Assembly (NCBI RefSeq): GCF_017641085.1
Contig: NZ_JAEPPI010000001.1
Coordinates: 1,364,001-1,428,000, forward strand
Origin: Gracilimonas sp.
Lineage (GTDB): Bacteria > Bacteroidota > Rhodothermia > Balneolales > Balneolaceae
Reading direction: 5' to 3'
Length of the DNA stretch: 64,000 nucleotides
Below, piece after piece: positions 37,157 through 54,882 of the stretch (the first letter of the stretch is position 1; each line of letters begins with the position of its first letter). The notes under the pieces are model-generated. The model had not been told where the DNA came from, ran no database searches, and saw only the letters and a program-made list of their open reading frames with translations. The position numbers were made by a program, and so were the translations under genes.

Positions 37157-37843
37157 ATGTCGAAAAGACTTTCAAAAGAAGAATTAGAATCCGATCCGCT
37201 GATTGAGAATTATAATCGTGCGGCGGCTTATGTAACGGAAAACAAAAGCTTTATCACCACTGTGGCCATTGCAGTAGTGCTGGTTGTAGGCGGTATTATA
37301 GGATATAATTACTATTCCTCAGCGCAGGAACAGGAAGCGCAGCAATTGCTTTCAGTAGCCGAGAACTATTACAACCGGGCTGAATATGAGAATGCTCTCT
37401 ATGGAGATGAATTCGAGCTGACCTATGGATTCGATCAAATTGCTGAGGAATTCCCGCGAACCAACGCCGGCAACATTGCCAATTTCTATGCCGCTGTTTC
37501 CAGTTACGAACTCGGTGATATTGAAAATGCCCTGATGTTCATGGAAGAGTTTGATGTGCCCAAAGGCATTCTTGGTGTAGGCCCGCTTAGTTTCCACGGC
37601 AAACTGCTGATGGCTAACGAAAGCTTTGATGCAGCAGCCGAGAAATTCGTTCAGGCCGCCAACTGGAACGAGAACAGTGTCACCACTCCCTCCAACCTTC
37701 TTGAAGCCGCACAAGCCTATTATCAGGCCGGTAACTACGACAAAGCGGATGAAGTAGCTACCCAGATTATTGAAGAGTATCCACAAAGCGGTCAAATTGC
37801 AGAATCAGAAAGACTGAAAGGAATGATCGCTGCAACCAGCTAA
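37157..37843 (+). CDS. Membrane-anchored TPR protein (YfgM/BamD-like)
   Basis: 228 residues: a short cytoplasmic N-terminus, one transmembrane helix (about 34-53, FITTVAIAVVLVVGGIIGY) and periplasmic TPR helices (AENYYNRAEYENAL, NFYAAVSSYELGDIENAL, AQAYYQAGNYDKADEVATQIIEEYP). The layout resembles YfgM, a SecYEG/PpiD-associated chaperone, but assignment is by architecture only. A terminator follows. Confidence 0.82.
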   Translation: MSKRLSKEELESDPLIENYNRAAAYVTENKSFITTVAIAVVLVVGGIIGYNYYSSAQEQEAQQLLSVAENYYNRAEYENALYGDEFELTYGFDQIAEEFPRTNAGNIANFYAAVSSYELGDIENALMFMEEFDVPKGILGVGPLSFHGKLLMANESFDAAAEKFVQAANWNENSVTTPSNLLEAAQAYYQAGNYDKADEVATQIIEEYPQSGQIAESERLKGMIAATS

Positions 37844-37870: not shown

Positions 37871-37901
37871 AAAAAGGCTGCCTTCAGGGTGGCCTTTTTT
37901 T
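37871..37901 (+). terminator. Intrinsic terminator after the TPR gene
   Basis: AAAAAGGCTGCC and GGTGGCCTTTTTT form a stem flanked by an A-run and a T-run. It can work in both directions between convergent genes. Confidence 0.8.
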
Positions 37902-37914
37902 ATGCGCTGTACTT

Positions 37915-39240
37915 TTATATGGAATTCAGATAACTGTGCAGATCTTCATCCGTGTCAATGTTCAGCTTCTTCCGCAGCCTCGACCTGCTTATATAAACAC
38001 TGGAGGGTTTGATGTTCAGCATATTAGAAATTTCCTTGGAGTTAAATCCAATCTTGATGTAGGCGCAAAGTCGAAGATCGTAGCGGGTAAGGTCGGGGAA
38101 TTCATCCCTCAGGGTATCAAAAAATTCCTGGTGAAGCTCATCAATCTGTATTTCAAAGGTATTGTCTTCCGGCTCAATGTGAGAGTCAATAATCTGAAGG
38201 ATCTCTGCACTTCTTACTTTTATGGATTCCGGATGTTCTCCGATCTGTTCTAATTTATTTTTCAGCTTTTGAAGAATCCTGTTCTTCTCATCGTTCTCTT
38301 TAGATTTGGTCGCAAGCTCAATGGTTTTGGTTTTCAGTTGAGCCTTCAGCTGTTCAAACTCAGCCTGAGACTTTTGCCGTTCGGCAATTTTCAGCGTCTT
38401 TTTATGCTTCTCCTGCTGTTGCTGTAACGATTTACGCTGATTAATAAGCAGGTCTTTTTTCTGCTTACCGAGCGATGCTTCCTTAATGAAATCGGCTTGT
38501 TCATTGGCCGACATATACATGCTGGGGTTATTTCCATCATGAAGAGGCTCATTCTGAACGGTTATAGCATCGATGGTAATCCCCTCCTCTGCCATTCCCT
38601 GTATATATTTCACAAAATAGAGTGCGTAAGCATCATAATAGCGGGGTAGTAATCTTCCTCCCACGGTGTTGTTGTTTGATTTCATCCAAATGGGAGCTGA
38701 CCAGGGTGAGCCCATAATTTTGAGTTCGGAATTAATAGCCAGAATCTCTTTCAACACCGGAATTAAATGCTCACGATCTGGGTCAAGACTGAATTCCGAC
38801 ATATCCTCGTCTGTCTCTCCGGCCTGTAAATCATTATAAGAGAATGTATGAGGGTCTAAATCCGAGGAACCAATACTCACACGCAGGTAGCTTACTCCAA
38901 TATCCCCTTCACCACGTCCGAAAAGCTCTTGCAGCAATTCCTGACGAGCTGAAGCACTCATGTTACTAATATGAAGGGCACTCCCACCGGTAAGCGAATA
39001 CCCAAAGCCGTCAATAGTTTGATAAGTTTTGTTTGAAGTAACTTCTATTGTTGGCAGTTCTGAATCAGCTTTGGCTTGTGTTACCCTGCCATCAATCTCC
39101 TCAAAGAGTGCAATTTGATCAGCGGTTGTAAGCCATAAATCTGAACCTTTATTACCATTGTCGCCCGCAGTTTTACATGATTGGTTAAACAGGAAAATTG
39201 AAATGACAAGACAAACAAAGCAAAGAATTCTGGTATTCAT
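37915..39240 (-). CDS. Chimeric ORF: truncated GH30 glycosidase lipoprotein fused to a LuxR-type regulator tail
   Basis: 441 residues from two unrelated genes. Residues 1-253 are a GH30 (glucosylceramidase/endo-glucanase-like) lipoprotein. They have a signal peptide with lipobox Cys22 (LFNQSCK), the YQTIDGFGYSLTGGSA start, GSPWSAPIWMKSNN, and acid/base E231 in ITVQNEP. The barrel stops right after SANEQADFIK, so the nucleophile Glu and last strands are missing. Residues about 254-441 are a cytoplasmic-type coiled coil (KKDLLINQRKSLQQQQEKHK ...) and a LuxR/GerE helix-turn-helix (GFNSKEISNMLNIKPSSVYI), as at the end of Bacteroidota Y_Y_Y/TPR regulators. The junction is near 38465-38485. An exported HTH cannot regulate, so this is probably a deletion fusion without function, or an assembly join. 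Confidence 0.85.
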   Translation of the reverse strand: MNTRILCFVCLVISIFLFNQSCKTAGDNGNKGSDLWLTTADQIALFEEIDGRVTQAKADSELPTIEVTSNKTYQTIDGFGYSLTGGSALHISNMSASARQELLQELFGRGEGDIGVSYLRVSIGSSDLDPHTFSYNDLQAGETDEDMSEFSLDPDREHLIPVLKEILAINSELKIMGSPWSAPIWMKSNNNTVGGRLLPRYYDAYALYFVKYIQGMAEEGITIDAITVQNEPLHDGNNPSMYMSANEQADFIKEASLGKQKKDLLINQRKSLQQQQEKHKKTLKIAERQKSQAEFEQLKAQLKTKTIELATKSKENDEKNRILQKLKNKLEQIGEHPESIKVRSAEILQIIDSHIEPEDNTFEIQIDELHQEFFDTLRDEFPDLTRYDLRLCAYIKIGFNSKEISNMLNIKPSSVYISRSRLRKKLNIDTDEDLHSYLNSI

Positions 39241-39267: not shown

Positions 39268-40125
39268 TCAATTGTTTTGAAACAGGGCTACAACTTCCGA
39301 GGGACTCATGTTTTCGATCATATCCCTGCGGCCAAGTTCGCGGATGAAATCTTCAGTAACTCCGTTTGCGTGAAGGGCTATAATCCCTGAATAATCTAAT
39401 TCTTCCAGGTAATCATATCTGTTCAGCGTTTGCATATAATCCAGTGGAACCCCATTGGCATATAGCCCAACAATACCAGGATAGTTCAAATCCTCCAGCA
39501 AGTCCAACCGATTCAGCCCGCGGAGATACTCTTCTGAAACACCGTTTGAATGCAACCCGATTACACCTGTGTAATCCAGCTCATCCAGGTAATCAATTCG
39601 TTCTAAATTTCGGATATAATCGGCCGGTACTCCGTTGGCATGTAAACCAATCAAAGCGGTATAGTCTAATTCCTCCAGAAAATCGGCACGTTCCAGCTCG
39701 CGCATGTAATCCAGTGGCACCTCGTTTTGATACAACGCCATGATCTGATTACGGTCTGGCGTTTCACCGAAATCAAGCTTTTTAACGTCATCGATATACT
39801 CCAGTATTCCACCCGAAAGACCTGCCGGATTCTGAACCACTTCCGTCACCTGTCCGCTGTTTCCTCCGATTCCCAATGCATCAAGTGGTCGCCAGTCATT
39901 AAACCAGATAAAGAAAATTACCAGAAATACCCCTAAAACAATGGCATCCCGTTTCAGAGTCCCCTTCTTTTCCTCGTTGAATTCCGGGCGGACGTAATCC
40001 AGAAAACCCTCATCCTCCTTAGGGTCTTCTCCGCCGTCAAAATCTATTTCCGGCTCCTGTTCTGCATCATTGTTATGCAGATGATTCTTGATACGATTGC
40101 TATGTTTGTCTTTTTGGCCAGCCAT
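39268..40125 (-). CDS. Single-pass membrane protein with exact 30-residue tandem repeats
   Basis: 285 residues: an acidic N-terminal region, one transmembrane helix (about 61-77, AIVLGVFLVIFFIWF) and five consecutive 30-residue repeats (131-160, 161-190, 191-220, 221-250, 251-280) plus a terminal LFQNN. Each repeat follows L-x-x-N-G-V-x-x-x-Y-(I/L/M)-x-x-L-x-R-x-D-x-L-x-x-L-x-Y-x-x-(I/V)-(I/V)-(G/A). The pattern resembles the helical GV..YI..L repeats found after M56/BlaR1-type and similar Bacteroidota membrane proteins. The repeats would form an alpha-solenoid outside the membrane for protein binding. No enzyme motif is present; the role is unknown. Only 27 bp separates it from the chimeric ORF. 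Confidence 0.8.
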   Translation of the reverse strand: MAGQKDKHSNRIKNHLHNNDAEQEPEIDFDGGEDPKEDEGFLDYVRPEFNEEKKGTLKRDAIVLGVFLVIFFIWFNDWRPLDALGIGGNSGQVTEVVQNPAGLSGGILEYIDDVKKLDFGETPDRNQIMALYQNEVPLDYMRELERADFLEELDYTALIGLHANGVPADYIRNLERIDYLDELDYTGVIGLHSNGVSEEYLRGLNRLDLLEDLNYPGIVGLYANGVPLDYMQTLNRYDYLEELDYSGIIALHANGVTEDFIRELGRRDMIENMSPSEVVALFQNN

Positions 40126-40481
40126 ATCCCGAATGTATGAATTGCGGAGCTAAGATTGTACAGGGAAGACCTATTTCTTTATGAAGCCCTGAAGGACTTC
40201 GCTTGTTTACCGGAATAGATGAGTGGCAATAGATAGAATGCTGACTGAGTTTGACATTTTGGGTAACCCGATCGTCCATCGCAAATCGCGAACCGATCTC
40301 TCGCAAATCAAACAGCGCAGTGATGAACCAAATTCCGAATATCTATTAACGAATTTCCACTTCCGGTAACCCAAATGGTAAAGGAGATCCCGGATCAGAT
40401 CCGGGATGACGACTTTGCTTTACCGGTAAAGATTAACGAAAATACTAATCTGCGAAATCCAACAAACCCACAAATCTGCGA
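40126..40481. other. Intergenic region (356 bp) with a REP-like palindrome
   Basis: No credible ORF. It contains the palindrome at 40387-40407 and, around 40270-40315, a stretch with CGTCCATCGCAAATCGC and CTCTCGCAAATC that looks like decayed intergenic repeat. Confidence 0.6.
40387..40407. repeat. REP-like perfect palindrome
   Basis: ATCCCGGATC, a single A, then GATCCGGGAT: 10-bp arms around one base. GC-rich palindromes of this type recur in bacterial intergenic DNA. It lies 75 bp beyond the icmF stop codon and might stabilise or end that transcript. Confidence 0.7.
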
Positions 40482-43400
40482 TCACATGTTTCGCCGATAC
40501 TGCCCACCTACTTCATATAAAGCATGTGAAATCTGTCCCAGCGAAGCTACTTTAACCGTTTCCATGAGTTCTTCGAAGAGGTTGCCGTTGTTTCGGGCTA
40601 CTTCTTTGAGTCGTTCGATAGCTATATCAGCGTCTTTTTCGTTTCGTTTCCAGAACTGCTCCAGGTTTTCAATCTGCTGGCGTTTTTCTTCTTCAGTTGA
40701 ACGGATGAGGTCGATTTCTTTATCGCCTTCTTCTCCTTCGCCTTCCTTCTGAAAGGTATTCACACCAATAATCGGAAGCTCTCCGGAGTGTTTTTTGGAT
40801 TCGTAATAAAGCGATTCATCCTGAATCTTGCCCCGCTGATACATATTCTCCATAGCGCCGAGTACGCCACCACGTTCAGTGATGCGATCAAACTCGGTAA
40901 GAATGGCTTCTTCCACCAGATCGGTCAGTTCATCAATAAAATACGATCCCTGGTTAATGTTCTCATTCTTAGCCGTTCCCAGTTCTTTATTAATGATCAT
41001 TTGGATAGCCAGAGCACGACGAACAGACTCCTCGGTCGGAGTGGTAATTGCCTCGTCATAAGCATTGGTGTGCAAAGAGTTACAATTATCGTATATCGCT
41101 AATAATGCCTGAAGTGTGGTTCGGATATCATTAAACTGAATCTCCTGAGCGTGCAGAGAGCGACCACTGGTTTGAATGTGATATTTCAGCTTCTGTGAAC
41201 GGTCGTTGGCTTCGTATTTATTCTTCATGGCTACGGCCCATATACGTCGCGCCACGCGACCGATAACCGCGTATTCAGGGTCAAGTCCGTTACTGAAAAA
41301 GAACGACAGGTTATGGGCAAAATCATCCACATCCAATCCGCGTGCCAGGTAATATTCCACAAAGGTAAACCCATTGGCCAGCGTAAAGGCTGCCTGTGTA
41401 ATTGGATTCGCCCCCGCCTCTGCAATGTGATAACCGGAGATTGAAACCGAGTAGTAATTACGGACATTATGTTCGGTGAAATAGGTTTGAATGTCCCCCA
41501 TCATCTTCAGGGCGAATTCAGTGGAAAAGATACAGGTATTTTGTGCCTGGTCTTCCTTCAGTATGTCAGCCTGAACCGTTCCGCGAACCACGCTCAGGGT
41601 GTTTTCCTTAATCTCGTTATAAGTGCTTTCCGGCAATAAATGATCTCCTGAAATACCAAGGGTAGCCAGGCCAAATTCATCATTGCCTTCCGGAATTTCA
41701 TTGCTGTACTGCGGTTGTTCCACTCCCCGTTCTTTGAAGTAAGATTTAATTTTCTTCTTCGCTTCTTCCCACTTGCCGTTTTCTTTCAGATACCGTTCTA
41801 CTTCCTGGTCAATAGCGGTATTCATAAACATCGCCAGAATCATAGGGGCCGGGCCGTTTATGGTCATCGATACCGATGTTTTTGGGGAAGTCAGTTCAAA
41901 GCCGGAATACAGCTTCTTCATGTCATCCACGGTACAAATACTGACACCGGAGTTACCGATTTTACCGTAAATATCCGGTCGATATCCTGGGTCTTCACCA
42001 TACAGTGTTACCGAATCAAAAGCCGTGGAAAGTCGTGCAGCCGGCATGCCTTCACTCACGTAGTGAAAACGTTTGTTGGTTCGCTCCGGGGTTCCTTCGC
42101 CTGCAAACATGCGGGTGGGGTCTTCACCCTCCCTCTTGAACGGGAATACACCTGCGGTGTATGGGAAATATCCCGGCAGATTTTCTTTCAGGGCAAATTT
42201 CAGCTGCTCCCCTTTGTTCTTTGTTTTGGGAAGAGCCACACGTGGAATCTGTAATCCACTCAGCGATTCACGATATAATTCATTCTTGAAGGTCTTGTCG
42301 CGGATTTGAACCTCAAAATGTTCTTGCTGGTATTGCTCAAATAATTCATTCCAGCCATCCAGGATTTTCTTAGGCAGCACGTCCAGCTTAGTAAGCCAGT
42401 GCTCTCGCATTTTATCCAGGTTATCCTGCATCACCTGCTTTTCATCCGGATTCCAGCTTTCCAGCTGATCCATGGTTCCTGAAACCTGATCCAGTTTGGA
42501 AGCGGCATCCACCTGCTCTTCCACCCACTCGTGGTAATCACGAACTGTTTCTGAAATTTCGGATAAATACCGAACCCGTTTTCCGGGAATAATGGCCTGC
42601 GCCTGAATATCCTCAGCCGGCTTGGGATTCGTATAAATTTTGGTTTCCCAGCCAATTTCATAATGGCCGTTGATCTTATCCACCAGGGCCTTGAACAAAC
42701 GGTTCACGCCTTCATCATTAAACTGTGCGGCTATAGTTGGGTACACCGGCATATCTTCCTGCTTGGCATGCCATGAGCCCGTGTTTCGAATCATTTGCTT
42801 GCGTACATCCCGCAGAGCATCCAATGACCCTTTCTTCTCAAACTTATTAAGCACCACCAAATCAGCGAGATCAAGCATGTTAATCTTCTCAAGCTGTGTG
42901 GCTGCCCCGTATTCACTCGTCATTACATACATCGGGATATCGGTGATATCCACAATCTCAGTGCCGCTCTGCCCGATTCCGGAGGTTTCCACTATAATGA
43001 GGTCAAATCCGGCTGCTTTGTACAATTCAATGGCACCGAGCAGTCCTTTACTGGTAGATCGATTGGATGCCCGGGTAGCCATACTGCGCATAAATACCCG
43101 GTCGGTGTCGATGCTGTTCATGCGGATGCGGTCGCCCAACAAGGCTCCGCCTGTTTTCACTTTGGACGGATCTACGGAAATGATCCCGATGGTCAGGTCT
43201 TCAAACTCAGTTAAAAATCGCCGAACCAGTTCATCGGTCAGAGAACTTTTACCGGCTCCACCGGTTCCTGTAATCCCGACCAGGGGTATGGTTTTATCGG
43301 ATAATTCAATCTCCTTGCCTTTCCCATTAAGGATCTTACCATCTTTCAGCGCTAAAATGTCTTCATGTTCATTCTCAATAGCCGTTAGCGAACGGGAAAG

Positions 43401-51886: not shown

Positions 51887-52972
51887 GTGAGTAGTTCATT
51901 TGATTTTTGTGTACTCGGAGCCGGGTTAGCCGGTTTGTCCATCTCGAAGCATTTAATAGATAACGGAGCTTCTGTTTGCCTGATCGATACCGGTGAAGTT
52001 GCTTCAGGAGCATCAGGAACTCCACTTGGGTTAGTGAATCCCGCTACAGGTCGTTGGGGTACCAAGAGCTGGAGAGCTGAAGATTGCCACCAGGCTGTGT
52101 ATGATGATTTGAAGGAGATTCAGGAACAAACTCCGGTTCGTCTGTTCGATAAGACAGGCATTTTACGCCCGGCTCAGGACGAAGAAATGGCTGAACGGAT
52201 GTTTGGTAATTTCGAAAAGAACGACTGGCCGGAAGACTGGTGTCATTGGCTGGATAAGAAAGAAGTAGCATCCATAAACCCCGAATTGAATTGCGTGGAA
52301 GGTGGAATGTGGCTTCCGCATGGACTCACTGTAAACGTTCCCACTTATCTCAAATCGAAAGCGGGTTATTTGTCCGACAAAGGGCTGCACATCATTACAA
52401 ATGCGGATTACAGCCTTGATCAAAGTGGCGACCATTTTGAGCTTTCATTTAATGATGGCAAAATTCTCGAAGCCAATTCGGTGATCTTTACGGCCGGACA
52501 TCAAACCAAAGAATCCGAATATTGGGATTTTCTCCCCCTCCATGCCATAAAAGGACAGGTAGCTGTATTTGAATCTCCCCAAACCCGAAAATTCGATTAT
52601 TCAATTTCTGCCCTCGGATATATCGCTTCCATTTCTGATACCCGTTTTGTAGCCGGAAGTACCTACGAACATCACTTTGAAGACGTAGAACCTGATATTG
52701 AAGGACTAGACTATCTAACCGAAAGACTTGGAGGCGTTTATCCTTCCCTGTTCAAAGAAGCCAAACTGGTCGATCAGTGGGCTGGTGTCAGAGCATCCAC
52801 ACCGAATAAAAAGCCCATTGTTGGTGCCCACCCGGATATTGAGAATATGTTCGTTTTTGCCGGACTTGGATCAAAGGGGCTGTTGTATAGCGTCTATTTT
52901 GGTAAAGCTCTTTCTGAATATATACTGCAAGGATCAGCTATCCCCAAAGAGGTTTCGGTGAACAGGGTCTGA
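51887..52972 (+). CDS. FAD-dependent oxidoreductase resembling the MnmC C-terminal domain
   Basis: 361-residue DAO-fold flavoprotein with a GTG start at 51887. The Rossmann motif is FCVLGAGLAGLSISKHL. ASGASGTPLGLVNPATGR, ALGYIASISDTRFVAGSTYE and GVRASTPNKKPIVG resemble the FAD domain of MnmC. That domain oxidatively removes the carboxymethyl group of cmnm5s2U34 in tRNA. No methyltransferase half is attached or adjacent. A glycine or other amine oxidase remains possible. It starts 7 bp after pncA and its 3' end overlaps the convergent gene by 39 bp. Confidence 0.75.
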   Translation: MSSSFDFCVLGAGLAGLSISKHLIDNGASVCLIDTGEVASGASGTPLGLVNPATGRWGTKSWRAEDCHQAVYDDLKEIQEQTPVRLFDKTGILRPAQDEEMAERMFGNFEKNDWPEDWCHWLDKKEVASINPELNCVEGGMWLPHGLTVNVPTYLKSKAGYLSDKGLHIITNADYSLDQSGDHFELSFNDGKILEANSVIFTAGHQTKESEYWDFLPLHAIKGQVAVFESPQTRKFDYSISALGYIASISDTRFVAGSTYEHHFEDVEPDIEGLDYLTERLGGVYPSLFKEAKLVDQWAGVRASTPNKKPIVGAHPDIENMFVFAGLGSKGLLYSVYFGKALSEYILQGSAIPKEVSVNRV

Positions 52973-53287
52973 ATCTTTTTGTTTCCTGATTCGGCCTTTT
53001 TTATCAACCGTAATTGAACCATACATATTATGCTTGTTAAGCTGATCAATTTTCTTACGGATATACTTCATTTTCTTTGGTGCATTCTTGTCCATAAAAA
53101 TTTGCTTTACCTGAAGCCAAGCCGTCAGCTCATCTTCTTCTCTCCCGTTCCACATTGCTGAAAACAACCGTTCCAGTTCGTCTTTATAGGTGTCTTTTGA
53201 ATATTTTCGGGCAAACCACGCCATCGCATAGCTTAGCGGCAGGGCCAGTATAAAACCAATAATCTCATAAATAGCAAAGCTCGTCAT
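52934..53287 (-). CDS. Small single-pass membrane protein, unknown
   Basis: 117 residues: an N-terminal hydrophobic helix (YEIIGFILALPLSYAMAWF) followed by a basic cytoplasmic domain (DELERLFSAMWNGREEDE ... KKMKYIRKKIDQLNKH). No family recognised. Its 3' end overlaps the convergent FAD-enzyme gene by 39 bp on the opposite strand. Confidence 0.68.
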   Translation of the reverse strand: MTSFAIYEIIGFILALPLSYAMAWFARKYSKDTYKDELERLFSAMWNGREEDELTAWLQVKQIFMDKNAPKKMKYIRKKIDQLNKHNMYGSITVDKKGRIRKQKDSDPVHRNLFGDS

Positions 53288-53349
53288 AGTGCTGATTTTA
53301 TTCAGCGACCAGAACGAGCTTTGAAAGAAATTAATTCAGCAATAAAATA

Positions 53350-54882
53350 TTAGAATCGGAGCAGGAGTCCACTCCAAGCTACACCGGCAGATGAACCTGA
53401 GTTCTCAGAGTTTGCCACATTTGATACTCCTACAGTAAATTCAAGGAAGTTGAAATCAAGTCCAATTCCGGCTGAATACGCTGCTGATGAATATCCACCT
53501 ACACGAGAGCCAACCCGAATCGGAATAAAACCTAATAATCGGTATTGAGCACCCAGACTCAGTGCGCTTCGTTCAGAGTTAAGTCCATTACCGTTAAACC
53601 CAACGCCATAATCGAGAGCAAGCATCAGCTTACCCATCTCAAGCGAAGCTCCGAAGTTATACATCGAAGGCAGGTTATAAGTAATACCGGCCGTTTGTTC
53701 TGAATTAAACTGCCCGTAAACATCATTTTGCAGACTATCAGACAGGTTATCAAAGAAGTTGGAAAACTCATCGTCATCACCGGCTCCCTGGTAACTGAAG
53801 TTACCGTCTGCATATACGCTGGAAGGGTCCTGATCGTACGTTAGTTTTCCCATATCCGTGATGGACATAGATACACGAAGAGTTTTCTTCTTACGGACGA
53901 AAAGAGGAATCGGAACAGATGAAATATCCATTTCCACCGTAGCCCCAAGGTCAAGACCAAAGCCGGTTGCCTGGGGTGAGCTCAGGTCATCGGCAACATC
54001 TCCAAATTCTACATAGTCATCAAACTTGGCGTTGTTATCCTGGTTGTAAGCTGTTTCATAAGCCTGAAGCTGTCGGGAAAGCTCTCCAATAGTTTGCAAG
54101 CTGTAATTGAATTCGTGGTTAATGGTGAAGTTTGAACCATTGGAACCGTCATCAATCTGAAGACTTGAATTGAAATCAAGATCGGCTGTGTAAACACCAT
54201 ACAGGTATTTGGGAGCCGCTCCAACATATAATTTTATATCTTTGGCAAAAAACAGATCCGGGATATTAATGAAGTTCAGCTCCCGGGCATAGCCTACTGA
54301 AATCTCAGCGAAGGCTACCGTATTTGAACTAAAATTAACCGGAGTCGGACTAGAAAATTTATCCGAATCCAATCCATAGGTCATCAGCTCGGCCATCCCT
54401 TTGTTGATGGCAAAATCTTCCGTGATACGCACTCTAGAAGCCACACTGAATGCCTGATTGGCACCGCGGTAGGAAACCCCCAACGGAGCCATGCTGAAAG
54501 TAGCAGAAAGCTCGCGCTCATTGGATGAACTGGAACCAAACCACTCATTGAGCATGTTAGTGCGGGTTTCACCGGCAATTAGCCGTCCTGTAGTAAGGTA
54601 TTTGTTATAAACAGCCAGGTTGGCAAGGCTTCCACCTGCCTTTACACCGAAATTCATCAACCCAATTTGAGTTTTTGGGCGGTGAATATCCAGCATAAGG
54701 TTAGCCGGGTTTATGAAGTTGGCGTGAAAGCCATCCACATAGGCCGTACCTCCACTTCCCATTGCAAGTGACTGAGAGTTATAGTGCCTTGACTGTGCAA
54801 ACAACGAAGTAGATGCTACCCCGATAATTAGTGCTAAGAATAAACTTTTCTTCATGATGTTCTTATATAGCCTGTTATTCAT
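53350..54882 (-). CDS. DUF5723-family outer-membrane protein
   Basis: 510 residues, predicted beta-barrel with signal peptide ending VASTSLFAQ and the family opening LAMGSGGTAYVDGFHANFINPANLML. The start at 54882 is chosen because GGAGGT lies nine bases upstream inside the end of the preceding gene; an inner ATG at 54855 is possible. It is coupled to the large lipoprotein gene (stop and start one base apart) and probably works with it at the outer membrane. Confidence 0.82.
   Translation of the reverse strand: MNNRLYKNIMKKSLFLALIIGVASTSLFAQSRHYNSQSLAMGSGGTAYVDGFHANFINPANLMLDIHRPKTQIGLMNFGVKAGGSLANLAVYNKYLTTGRLIAGETRTNMLNEWFGSSSSNERELSATFSMAPLGVSYRGANQAFSVASRVRITEDFAINKGMAELMTYGLDSDKFSSPTPVNFSSNTVAFAEISVGYARELNFINIPDLFFAKDIKLYVGAAPKYLYGVYTADLDFNSSLQIDDGSNGSNFTINHEFNYSLQTIGELSRQLQAYETAYNQDNNAKFDDYVEFGDVADDLSSPQATGFGLDLGATVEMDISSVPIPLFVRKKKTLRVSMSITDMGKLTYDQDPSSVYADGNFSYQGAGDDDEFSNFFDNLSDSLQNDVYGQFNSEQTAGITYNLPSMYNFGASLEMGKLMLALDYGVGFNGNGLNSERSALSLGAQYRLLGFIPIRVGSRVGGYSSAAYSAGIGLDFNFLEFTVGVSNVANSENSGSSAGVAWSGLLLRF

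Follow-up and report, generated by a model that had tools for sequence, protein, structure and literature searches.

An open reading frame of 441 codons in the 64,000-nucleotide stretch of Gracilimonas DNA analysed here (the window) is best explained as what remains of a glucan locus after a recent illegitimate deletion of about 43.7 kb, which left part of a GH30 glycosidase gene fused in frame to part of a regulator gene; the remnant is likely a young pseudogene. We put the probability of this reading at about 92%. The frame lies at 37915..39240 on the minus strand and is open throughout, and both of its parents were found in the nearest sister genome (G001).

The first 252 or so codons (38482..39240, minus strand) correspond to the N-terminal half of a BT3312-like GH30 protein of the endo-beta-1,6-glucanase family, as seen with Pfam, with NCBIfam and in the alignment to G001. 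Glyco_hydro_30 (PF02055) covers residues 76-254 (E 2.8e-26) with positions 1-184 of its 348-position profile, and the best NCBIfam match of this half is the BT3312 endo-1,6-beta-glucanase model NF053856 (residues 28-262, E 1e-61), which falls under its full-length cut-off, as expected since only half a protein is present. Compared with BT3312-type endo-beta-1,6-glucanases (GH30; PDB 5NGK/5NGL), the chimera has the TIM-barrel similarity, residues 59-262 matching 5NGK (E 3.8e-40), but it amounts to the first half of such an enzyme. The acid/base Glu231 is kept in an NEP motif, its codon being placed at 38548..38550 (minus strand) both from the sequence and by alignment to 5NGK; the second catalytic glutamate, the nucleophile (residue 326, in FTEQW, of the intact G001 protein of 471 aa), falls past the junction and is absent from the chimera, as are the complete barrel and the C-terminal beta-sandwich domain. 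Residues 1-22 (39175..39240, minus strand; ending in FNQSC) form a GH30-derived lipoprotein-type signal, read from the sequence and from a hydrophobic peak at residues 5-23, and the same signal is present in the intact G001 GH30.

The rest of the frame (37915..38483, minus strand) is, by comparison with G001, the C-terminal part of a regulator, with a coiled coil followed by a GerE/LuxR-type HTH (PF00196, E 1.7e-5) at residues 393-434 (37939..38064, minus strand); in NCBIfam, the BT3442 family matches this tail weakly, and with its C-terminal part. The tail has the same coiled coil and C-terminal LuxR-type HTH as the membrane-spanning propeller-type HTH regulators of Bacteroidota and relatives but, unlike them, has neither exported sensor nor transmembrane helix and sits behind a lipoprotein signal, a position in which, as the earlier note on this DNA had argued, an HTH is unlikely to regulate. 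A hairpin with an A-run and a T-run (AAAAAAGGCcaccctgaaggcaGCCTTTTT on the minus strand) was read from the sequence at 37871..37900; it is likely a terminator shared with the convergent TPR gene.

The GH30 half is 89% identical to the intact 471-aa protein of G001 (C3:588657-590072, minus strand), and the tail is 97% identical to an intact 897-aa protein of the same genome (C3:545037-547730, minus strand), of which it covers residues 709-897. With halves this close to two different intact genes, the chimera is not a product of chance. The tail is also 72% identical to the regulator of another relative, G006. In the intact 897-aa regulator, a signal peptide and a propeller-like sensor, the latter weakly recognised, precede a hydrophobic segment (about residues 687-705), after which come the coiled coil and the HTH; from hydropathy we infer that the sensor is exported and that the segment is a transmembrane helix. 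The junction falls at regulator residue 709-710, directly after the hydrophobic segment, so that sensor and helix are lost in the chimera. The earlier note, made from the letters alone, had described an in-frame GH30/LuxR-type chimera whose GH30 part ends near residue 253, just after Glu231, with nucleophile and sensor both missing, and had proposed a search for separate genes in sister genomes; the open frame, the Pfam matches, the position of the junction and the two separate, intact G001 parents all agree with it. It had also assigned the tail to an unrelated cytoplasmic regulator: the coiled-coil/HTH tail stands, but the regulator appears to be membrane-spanning, with a signal peptide, and belongs to the same beta-glucan locus as the GH30.

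When the window is compared with positions 530001-610000 of G001, it aligns to 530001-545605 and then to 589314-610000, with both flanks collinear (mostly 93-97% identity) and the break exactly within the chimera. At the level of single bases, the window matches the regulator gene as far as 38483 and the GH30 gene thereafter, only the letters CT being common to both; the deletion junction at 38482..38483 (codons 252-254) thus joins C3 545605 of G001 to 589314 over a microhomology of 2 bp. The parents have the same orientation in G001 and lie 43.7 kb apart, and together with the collinear flanks these separate, intact genes are what identifies a deletion scar. The single deletion between tandem minus-strand genes proposed earlier is therefore retained as regards the deletion and the strand of both genes, but the two are not neighbours, as the whole island lies between them.

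The longest word shared within 300 bp of both deletion ends is 10 bp long and off register. Homologous recombination between repeats was rejected on this ground in favour of the 2-bp microhomology; with nothing beyond these 2 bp repeated in register at the ends, illegitimate joining is the likely route. Excision of a mobile element was rejected as well, since those G001 island genes that Pfam recognises include no transposase or integrase.

Both neighbours of the chimera are conserved. On the left, a TPR protein gene (37157..37843, plus strand) adjoins the island regulator in G001 and G006; on the right, the gene of a 285-aa repeat protein (39268..40125, minus strand) borders the island in the same two genomes. 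The 285-aa protein consists of repeats of about 26 residues (LYANGVPLDYMQTLNRYDYLEELDYSGI-like) with one hydrophobic segment, has no Pfam or NCBIfam match, and has relatives in 10/10 genomes of the genus, often in several copies. Two other differences were seen along the window. At 40340-40490, a 402-aa gene of G001, G005, G006 and G009 is absent, a second and smaller loss; in G001 this gene is flanked on both sides by a direct repeat of about 130 bp (the two copies are 87% alike), and the window retains one copy, so that a repeat-mediated loss is likely. At 52000-54500, identity to G001 drops to 81-90%, against 93-97% for most of the rest, which suggests replaced or fast-changing DNA.

The missing DNA was also sought elsewhere in the window's own genome, the only one representing its species, whose assembly consists of 7 contigs and is 98.4% complete. 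There is no second GH30 in it and, distant paralogues apart, residues 709-897 are all that is present of the regulator. Of the 43.7 kb, about 39 kb were used as four DNA queries, none of which matched its contigs specifically; at most there was a short generic similarity near 70% around a TonB receptor gene. Most of the remaining stretch consists of the regulator and GH17 genes, which were searched as proteins. A Pfam search for GH17 returned nothing in the genome, but its controls were empty too, and a protein search with a GH17 query was used instead: it found no relative here, whereas the same query matches in G001, G006 and G009. These results bear directly on the assembly join that had been raised as the mundane alternative, in which either two real loci were misjoined or the island was collapsed out of the assembly. 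We consider such an artefact very unlikely, because the join keeps both flanks collinear with G001 in order and orientation and the island sequence is on 0/7 contigs; moreover, the ends carry no long repeat that could cause a false join. Collinear flanks, a junction that switches from one gene to the other over 2 bp, and missing DNA that is nowhere in the 7 contigs argue for a single illegitimate deletion.

What was lost can be read from G001, where the interval between the two parents contains another 21 ORFs with a length of 100 aa or more. By Pfam, the carbohydrate-active proteins among them include three GH17, two GH16, a second GH30 with a C-terminal domain, a GH5 with a CBM and a GH2-like protein; they are accompanied by a TonB-dependent receptor, a LacI regulator, an MFS transporter, an MFS-GH17 protein, GDSL esterases, PorV-like and PPIase proteins, and a protein that carries a CBM and a type IX secretion tail. 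A 1136-aa protein of the island closely resembles 6HQ6, a beta-1,3-oligosaccharide phosphorylase of solved structure, which we take to be a GH149 enzyme, so that the island protein is presumably GH149-like. Laminarin utilisation loci of Muricauda are organised as GH17-GH30-MFS-GH17 with GH16 and GH149, and those of Formosa and Polaribacter have the same core (PMC13188888). The G001 island holds the same set as these polysaccharide utilisation loci, GH2-like protein and TonB receptor included, which points to a beta-1,3/1,6-glucan (laminarin-type) substrate for the lost island; in the window genome, by contrast, the locus is deleted and only its two ends remain, fused. The 789-aa MFS-GH17 protein of G001 (C3:549769-552138) combines a sugar transporter of the MFS/GPH type with a GH17 domain. 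The same long frame apparently occurs in G009 (784 aa), whereas in G006 and G004 the transporter, of 476 aa, stands by itself; the long protein is possibly a real transporter-hydrolase fusion.

A related, smaller island occupies the same place in G006, where an 899-aa regulator adjoins the conserved TPR gene, and another lies beside the TPR gene in G004; G005 has mostly other genes at the site. This variation in length and content among species is a point in favour of G001 having instead gained its island by insertion into an ancestral fused gene, a scenario to which we give next to no weight. Both breakpoints lie inside genes that are full-length and separate in many relatives (GH30s of 476-497 aa, regulators of about 900 aa), and the inserted DNA would have needed to bring exactly the two absent halves with it. 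Among 57 relatives, none has a match to the whole chimera, every match being to one half only, which also speaks against a conserved fusion as a real domain architecture. As separate full-length GH30s and regulators are widespread in the family and the order, the fused state is the derived one.

As to the age of the deletion, the window branch has accumulated 21 synonymous and 8 nonsynonymous changes in the GH30 half after diverging from G001. This departs strongly from neutrality (p about 1e-8) and resembles the ratio in an intact neighbouring gene on the same branch (22 and 8); the regulator tail has only 7 changes (4 synonymous, 3 nonsynonymous), too few to say much. The GH30 part has thus not decayed yet, and the deletion is probably recent. 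A ratio as in an intact gene implies that most of the divergence predates the deletion or, less likely, that the chimera is under selection. A low nonsynonymous share is also the pattern expected of a functional chimera and, with 441 codons open, one could think of an exported glucan-binding protein or of a soluble, constitutively active HTH fragment started internally, for instance a cytoplasmic piece with coiled coil and HTH that would regulate remaining targets independently of any signal. The internal start near 38480 suggested earlier has something in its favour, namely in-frame ATGs shortly before the junction (residues 241 and 243), but no clear ribosome-binding site precedes them. The barrel is moreover cut at about half, the regulator has lost the locus presumably under its control, and recency accounts for the substitution pattern; we therefore hold a functional product, the internally started fragment included, to be very improbable.

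The deletion reading then runs as follows. About 43.7 kb (about 44,000 bases) was lost in one step, probably via the 2-bp microhomology; one break lay within the gene of the BT3312-like GH30 lipoprotein, the second in the sensor-regulator gene directly after the part encoding the transmembrane helix, and this single event removed 21 ORFs and truncated two. The remnants share a frame by chance (1 in 3), giving the 441-aa ORF. Its product would be exported as a truncated GH30 barrel devoid of the nucleophile, with the attached coiled coil and HTH ending up on the wrong side of the membrane, and is most likely inert. In the literature covered, no paper on a regulator fusion created by a deletion came to light.

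The fused gene itself is biologically ordinary, a probably non-functional scar of locus loss. It clearly illustrates that the one-step loss of a large carbohydrate locus can leave a chimeric frame, which annotation would call a new multidomain protein. The scar also records that one species has recently lost beta-glucan use whereas its sister retains the locus, which makes the pair suited to a comparison of niches.
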